A DNA stretch of 64,000 nucleotides. Origin: Acidilobaceae archaeon (lineage in GTDB: Archaea; Thermoproteota; Thermoprotei_A; Sulfolobales; Acidilobaceae). Under the pieces are notes generated by a model. It was not told the origin of the DNA and did no database searches. It was given only the letters and a program-made list of their open reading frames with translations. Below, piece after piece: positions 35 through 1,113 of this stretch (position 1 is its first letter; every line of letters starts with the position of its first letter). The position numbers and the translations under genes were made by a program. The DNA is taken from the NCBI GenBank assembly GCA_026413755.1, contig JAOAKH010000002.1, positions 1 to 64,000 on the forward strand, read 5' to 3'.

Positions 35-483
35 CCTCTAGGGTGGGCGTGCCCCTCCTCAGGGGGAGGTATGGTTCAGATCCGGCGAGCGTGGCTCACG
101 ATGCGATAGAGCATGCCAGGGCGAAGGGCATCTGCGCAGTGCTCATAGACACCGCAGGCAGGATGCACGTGGACAAGGACCTAGTGGAGGAGATGAAGAA
201 GATCGTTAGGGTCTCCAGGCCGGACTTGCGCGTGCTGGTGGTGGACGCGCTGACGGGGAACGATGCCGTAGAGCAGGCCAGGGGCTTCCACAGCCACGTG
301 GGAGTGGACGCAGTAATAGTGGCGAAGGCAGACGCAGACACGAAGGGGGGCGCAGTTCTATCTGTCGCTTACGTTACTGGGAAGCCGATCCTGTTCCTTG
401 GCACAGGCCAGTCATACGAGGACCTGGAGCCCTTCTCCCCGGAGAAGTACGTTAACTCCATATTACCTTTCGAAGAGAAATGA
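35..483 (+). CDS. ftsY: Signal recognition particle receptor FtsY, 3' part
   Basis: FtsY is the SRP receptor GTPase that docks ribosome-SRP complexes at the membrane. Only the C-terminal half of the NG domain is present; the reading frame is open back to the adapter junction, so the gene is cut by the library artefact. Counting from the GTG at 43, the G3 motif DTAGR is at residues 36-40 and the G4-like AKAD at 94-97. The TKGG turn and the GTGQSYEDLEPFSPEKYV tail follow. The segment DALTGNDAVEQARGFH fits FtsY rather than SRP54, and there is no M domain before the stop. The N-terminal A domain and P-loop are missing. Confidence 0.93.
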
Positions 484-490
484 TTCTGGG

Positions 491-540
491 ATGAGGACTT
501 TGCCGAGTGCTGAGCTGTGAGGAGTGGGAGACCTAGCCGA
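491..540 (+). ncRNA. Candidate C/D-box guide sRNA
   Basis: Spacing is exactly that of archaeal C/D sRNAs: C box ATGAGGA (491-497), 12-nt guide (498-509), D' CTGA (510-513), 3-nt spacer, C' GTGAGGA (517-523), 13-nt guide, D CCGA (537-540). Both C boxes have G where the consensus RTGATGA has T. The terminal D box has C at the facing position, so the usual U-U pair of the kink-turn would become G-C. GGG before C and CC after D could form a short outer stem. The first guide is complementary to CACTCGGCAAAGT, resembling a conserved archaeal 23S rRNA segment (recalled, not searched). The element begins 8 nt after the ftsY stop. Confidence 0.5.
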
Positions 541-567
541 CCGATGATGCCCTACGCCATCGCCCGA

Positions 568-1113
568 TCAGTGAGGTGACCCGCCCTCCTGAGGTCCCAG
601 GGCCCTCCTAACGCCCCTCAGCACCTGCTCGTAGCCCTCCTCCCTGGCTACCAGCACTATCTTCTCTGGCAGCCATGGCGCCTCCAGGAGGGCCCTCGCT
701 ATAGTTTCTCCCGAGAGCTCAAGGCTGAGTCCCCCCACCCCGGCCCCCATGGCGGGGAAGGCGAGAGACCTAACTCCCTCTTCCCTAGCGACCTCAAGCG
801 CTGCCAGCGTTGCGGCCCTCACGGCCTCCACGCTGGAGCTCCCGCCGGGCCTCTCCACCGTGGGGGCATGTATTATGAGTTTCGCCTTCAACCTCCTTGC
901 CCTTGTAGCTACGGCCTTGCCTATGGGCACCGGCGCGCTCCTCATTGCCTCCCTCTCCACCTCTTCCCCCTCCACCCTCTTTATCGCCCCCGCCACCCCT
1001 CCTCCCATAATCATGAGGCTGTTTGCCGGGTTCACTATCGCGTCCACCTCTGCCTGCAGGAGATCTCCTGCCACCACGAGGAGGAGCGAGCCCCTCACGG
1101 AGAAGCTCTGCAC
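568..1113 (-). CDS. Macro-domain ADP-ribose-binding protein
   Basis: This is a stand-alone macro domain of 181 residues, close in layout to the Archaeoglobus AF1521 type that binds ADP-ribose or hydrolyses ADP-ribose derivatives. Visible motifs are GDLL with D17, VNPANS with N31, the GGGV phosphate loop at 37-40, IIHAP near 80-84 and FPAMGAGVGGLS at 119-130. The GTG start lies 2 nt from the transcription start predicted by the TATA box near 1141, so the mRNA is probably leaderless. It is transcribed away from the HIT-DHH operon, which also handles nucleotides. Whether it removes ADP-ribose from proteins or acts on free metabolites cannot be read from the sequence. Confidence 0.88.
   Translation of the reverse strand: MQSFSVRGSLLLVVAGDLLQAEVDAIVNPANSLMIMGGGVAGAIKRVEGEEVEREAMRSAPVPIGKAVATRARRLKAKLIIHAPTVERPGGSSSVEAVRAATLAALEVAREEGVRSLAFPAMGAGVGGLSLELSGETIARALLEAPWLPEKIVLVAREEGYEQVLRGVRRALGPQEGGSPH

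Follow-up and report, generated by a model that had tools for sequence, protein, structure and literature searches.

Among the described systems, the closest to the locus considered here are the double-guide box C/D sRNAs of archaea (PMC4644070, PMC7994747). Their genes may be clustered in pairs or triplets (PMC7994747), and the double guides have been proposed to bridge pairs of distant targets; helix 61 of 23S rRNA is among the methylation hotspots listed (Dennis et al. 2015, PMC4644070). Archaeal C/D boxes, for which the letter consensus RUGAUGA/CUGA is typical without being strictly defining, have a strong propensity for U:U and need protein for folding (Ashraf et al., PMC5689011). With G-C at position 3b.3n, kink-turns (k-turns) were found not to fold in metal ions but to fold with L7Ae, and the k-turns of U4 snRNA favor G-C or G-U at this position (McPhee et al. 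2014, PMC4382518). A change of U-U to A-U was reported to leave L7 binding unaffected and C-U to weaken it (Kuhn et al. 2002, as summarized in PMC6461891). The literature searched yielded no account of archaeal C/D boxes with G-C.

The window, by which the whole 64-kb stretch of DNA analyzed is meant, is the start of one contig in a 1.12-Mb Acidilobaceae assembly. A generic C/D pattern matched twice in it, at the sequences here called sR-A and sR-B (Table 1), and not once in 100 dinucleotide shuffles. sR-A begins 7 nt past the stop codon of ftsY and follows the order ATGAGGA-12-CTGA-3-GTGAGGA-13-CCGA. It resembles the archaeal double guides in its succession of boxes C, D', C' and D, in guides of 12 and 13 nt and a D'-C' linker of 3 nt, which agree with the archaeal C/D sRNA pattern of guides of about 10-13 nt and a short linker, and also in its N+5 targets in 23S rRNA, its place at the 3' end of a gene and the closeness of its targets in secondary structure (PMC4644070, PMC7994747). 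It departs from the archaeal norm in its terminal boxes, which read ATGAGGA/CCGA rather than RUGAUGA/CUGA; differences from the exact consensus occur at single positions in C and C', both with G at position 5, and in D, the TGA and GA cores are intact in all four boxes, and the G6-C1 pair is retained in both motifs. This mismatch was not treated as disqualifying because published sRNAs deviate too. The best Rfam match, sR60 (RF01309) over 487-542, likewise has AUGAGGA as its consensus C box; the score of 22.9 bits lies below the gathering score of 50, the guides differ, and the D box of sR60 is CUGA, so that its 3b.3n pair would be G-U. The deviation in sR-A is itself compensated (G-C terminal, G-U internal) and frequent among relatives. 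Beyond the boxes, its terminal stem in the window is short (GG/CC plus U-G), and the CCG spacer that follows has two possible partners, a GG that precedes sR-A and a GG that comes after sR-B. When the naked sR-A and sR-B RNAs were folded thermodynamically, no box structure was returned, as expected for k-turns dependent on protein. An outer stem, CTGGGA/TCCCAG, that would enclose both sRNAs is missing in the nearest relative (G001) and was taken as chance.

Table 1. Features at the start of the window, with the basis on which each was assigned.
Feature	Position	Strand	Basis
ftsY 3' part, SRP receptor GTPase	43..483, stop 481-483	+	ORF; matched in 59/60 relatives
sR-A, box C/D sRNA core, C to D	491..540	+	generic C/D pattern; synteny in genus-mates
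sR-A box C ATGAGGA, position 5 = G	491..497	+	sequence
sR-A D' guide CTTTGCCGAGTG, predicted target 23S ACTCGGCAAA	498..509	+	10/10 Watson-Crick in relatives' 23S
sR-A box D' CTGA	510..513	+	sequence
sR-A box C' GTGAGGA, G-U at 3b.3n with D'	517..523	+	sequence
sR-A D guide GTGGGAGACCTAG, predicted target 23S CTAGGTCCCC, one bulged A	524..536	+	folding on rRNA
sR-A box D CCGA, C2 opposite G5 of box C	537..540	+	covariation
CCG spacer, sR-A to sR-B, 3 nt	541..543	+	sequence
sR-B, second box C/D sRNA	544..592	+	generic C/D pattern; homologs in G001, G004, G005
sR-B boxes	C ATGATGC 544-550; D' CCGA 564-567; C' GTGAGGT 571-577; D CTGA 589-592	+	
macro-domain-like gene, convergent	568..1113	-	ORF; named by inspection only

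Conservation of sR-A is confined to its working parts. It directly follows ftsY in each of the five genus-mates, and also in three relatives from a second genus, in which the C boxes are ATGATGT, the D boxes CTGA and the D'-C' linker longer; the sequence around the boxes and guides is not conserved. The frame of box C, guide and box D', RTGANGNN-TTTGCCGAG-NN-CNG, was recovered from 83 of the 197 genomes of the order, compared with none for a reversed-pattern control, and in other genera the D' guide is found away from ftsY. Orthologs in G026, G017 and G034 (L232-L234) have a hairpin-like insert of ~30 nt that replaces the 3-nt D'-C' linker. Family f10 includes C/D sRNAs (G054, G063) that combine the D guide of sR-A (GTGGAGACCTCA-CCGA) with another D' guide; judging from these, guides appear to have been recombined between sRNAs.

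The organism's own 23S rRNA is absent from the assembly, which holds the 5' part only of its 16S, and the targets of sR-A were read from the 23S rRNA of relatives. In every one of these examined, the D' guide pairs from N+2 at 10 of 10 positions, and the nucleotide at N+5 is a C, E. coli 23S 1672. For the D guide, the guide of each genome was folded on its own rRNA and a common alignment column was sought. The best column corresponded to E. coli 23S ~1979-1990, with a mean of -18.2 kcal/mol over six genomes, followed by a site at -12.9; the guide of the window gave -21.0 kcal/mol on the 23S rRNA of G001. This target is supported by covariation between guide and rRNA: G001 has CTAGG in its 23S rRNA at a place where every other archaeal 23S sequence aligned has CGAGG, and CCTA is present in the guides of G001 and of the window, compared with mostly CCTC in those of other genomes. 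The window organism's own 23S rRNA is thus predicted to carry CTAGG. At N+5 lies a G, E. coli 23S 1983; the pairing includes a one-base bulge or mismatch, and with a bulge needed, the methylation predicted at this site is less certain. Other candidate targets of the D guide were rejected. A site in 16S rRNA near E. coli 209 is good in G004 and some other genomes, but the loop concerned is shortened in the 16S of the window and of G001, and among tRNA tails with RGGTC, considered for a match to the T stem and variable loop, none has the continuation that the guide requires. In the 23S rRNA of G003 (L043), an insertion of 54 bases at E. coli ~1665, just upstream of the D' target, is probably an rRNA intron.

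The strands adjoining the two targets pair with each other in every genome tested, forming what we take to be helix 61 of 23S rRNA; sR-A predicts two methylations that flank this helix. An earlier note on this DNA, made from its letters, had called 491-540 a C/D-box sRNA. Its boxes and 12/3/13 spacings are present exactly as it described them, the match it proposed between the first guide and 23S rRNA is borne out by the complete pairing of ACTCGGCAAA in the relatives, and conservation, spacing, synteny and the two 23S targets all back the assignment; sR-B, the second guide's 23S target and the recurrence of the G-C pairing across the order had escaped it.

The altered letters of sR-A are position 5 of the C box and position 2 of the D box, which stand opposite each other as the 3b.3n pair of the k-turn. 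This pair is G-C instead of U-U in the terminal motif and G-U in the internal one. In a census of 113 C/D sRNAs from 27 genomes, for which both 3b.3n letters were left free, the terminal pairs were UU (48), GC (31), GU (15), AU (13), AG (4) and AA (2). Whenever the second letter of the terminal D box was C, it faced G5 (31 of 31; permutation p<=5e-5, which is the floor of the test, relatedness being ignored); internal motifs were less strict, with C2 facing G5 in 9 of 14. Searches for box variants across the 197 genomes of the order, with the D'-C' linker fixed at 3 nt and sRNAs with longer linkers thereby uncounted, yielded 137 matches to G5/C2 in 58 genomes compared with four for the reversed-pattern control, one of the 137 being a shifted register across the tandem. 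For the combination U5/C2, there were four matches compared with three in the control, which is chance level. These observations strongly support the view that the replacement of U-U by G-C is genuinely compensated. Among orthologs of sR-A itself, 3b.3n is UU in 40, GC in 8, GU in 6, AU in 4, CC in 4, CU in 3, AA in 2 and AG in 2; those with G-C are spread over four genera, and in one of these there are members with U-U too. The orthologs with G-U suggest a path of change from U-U through G-U to G-C. The pairing rule is not absolute, as shown by four orthologs with C.C in family f7. In this family (L279-L291), orthologs with C.C or A.G at 3b.3n have the C' box GTGCTGA, a different box style.

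Terminal G-C pairs accounted for 21 of the 40 sRNAs of the window's genus in the census vs 10 of the 73 from elsewhere. As the pair is nevertheless present in 10 of the 11 families of the order, and 42 G5/C2 matches come from five genomes of genus g19, it is recurrent and enriched in the window's genus rather than lineage-specific. The earlier note was therefore right about the terminal G-C and its compensation, although it left the internal C'/D' G-U unmentioned, and the recurrence in relatives that it proposed to look for was found; its suggestion of a lineage-specific L7Ae-binding variant was not supported as phrased, genus g19 using the pair equally. A special L7Ae is not required, because L7Ae folds a k-turn with G-C at 3b.3n (PMC4382518), and the simplest reading, by analogy, is that ordinary L7Ae would bind through an alternative pair. 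The likeness is to the k-turns of U4 snRNA, in which G-C also stands beside tandem G.A pairs and folding is brought about by a protein of the L7Ae family and not by metal ions (PMC4382518, PMC4914095); U4, however, is a spliceosomal RNA, whereas the G-C of sR-A belongs to a guide for methylation, a class in which U:U has been reported as the norm (PMC5689011). The census amounts to a natural test of a k-turn rule, in which U-U, G-C, G-U and A-U are used and U-C is avoided in archaeal C/D boxes. This usage is in line with in vitro studies of 3b.3n and of the binding of L7Ae, and the letters tolerated here agree with the effects of U-U, A-U and C-U on L7 binding as summarized in PMC6461891. There is also a practical consequence: given that the k-turn filter of snoReport 2.0 requires at least one U in the 3b.3n pair (PMC5249026), sRNAs with a terminal G-C, about half of those of the genus, would be discarded. 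A gene for L7Ae was located in G001; a fibrillarin consensus had no match in the stretches searched, a result that does not bear on the presence of the gene.

sR-A is thus very probably an archaeal box C/D methylation-guide sRNA, ordinary in kind, in which the paired box change is the instructive part. Most likely, it directs 2'-O-methylation at two sites of the large rRNA. The ftsY transcript would supply the RNA from its 3' end, and L7Ae would bind both the terminal C/D k-turn of sR-A, with G-C, and the internal C'/D' k-loop, with G-U, followed by assembly of Nop5 and fibrillarin. The D' guide would then place a 2'-O-methyl group on the C at 1672, and the D guide may do so on the G at 1983. 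Given that the two strands of helix 61, which closes domain IV, each have one of these sites just inside the helix, the RNP probably also bridges them, acting as a chaperone during rRNA folding. The G-C pair would have arisen from U-U through G-U and would keep the k-turn dependent on L7Ae.

Other readings of the locus were weighed against a guide RNA. Stop codons and TGA-rich gene ends resemble the boxes and could yield a chance C/D-like sequence in the 3' UTR of ftsY where there is no RNA gene; this is extremely improbable, in view of the empty shuffles, the retention of guides, boxes and place while the surroundings change, and a D' guide frame that occurs in 83 genomes vs none of the controls. 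The k-turn at the ftsY stop might instead serve chiefly as a regulatory element that acts on ftsY mRNA through bound L7Ae, with guiding secondary. Some mRNAs do have L7Ae-bound k-turns (PMC5539422), and the place behind ftsY is conserved within the genus, but no part is better conserved than the guides, and other genera have the D' guide at places not next to ftsY, which makes this reading very unlikely.

A further reading concerns sR-B, the order of which is ATGATGC-13-CCGA-3-GTGAGGT-11-CTGA, with G-C at 3b.3n of its internal C'/D' motif and U-U at that of its terminal one. The distance from the D box of sR-A to the C box of sR-B is 3 nt in the window and in G001. In these two species, sR-A and sR-B might form a single 102-nt RNA with four guides, closed by the outer C and D boxes and with CCG as a k-loop: in both genomes this distance is the one normally seen between D' and C', the CCG spacer is unable to serve both terminal stems simultaneously, and other chains of at least three units are absent from the 1.25 Mb scanned. 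However, the middle pair in the window would be C.U (CCGA with ATGATGC), a combination at chance level order-wide, and with each sRNA closed in the usual way the pairs are G-C and U.U; moreover, the two sRNAs are 21 nt apart in G004, and in G005 the homolog of sR-B is situated elsewhere, away from sR-A. Such a four-guide RNA is accordingly unlikely, and quite improbable is the broader proposal that this fusion, with three internal-type k-loops, goes together with a general change of the L7Ae-sRNA system of the genus, in which its C/D boxes moved largely from U-U to G-C.

The D' guide of sR-B yielded no convincing common target; its D guide pairs at 9 of 9 positions with GAGGGCGGG of the organism's own 16S rRNA. 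The last 25 nt of the convergent macro-domain-like gene are antisense to sR-B. On the other side of the sRNAs, ftsY owes its name to its sequence (DTAGRMHVD..) and to the features of the family. Its reading frame is interrupted at the contig-end sequence of positions 1-34, GTCTCGTGGGCTCGGAGATGTGTATAAGAGACAG, which we take to be the Illumina Nextera transposase adapter, still attached to the end of the contig.
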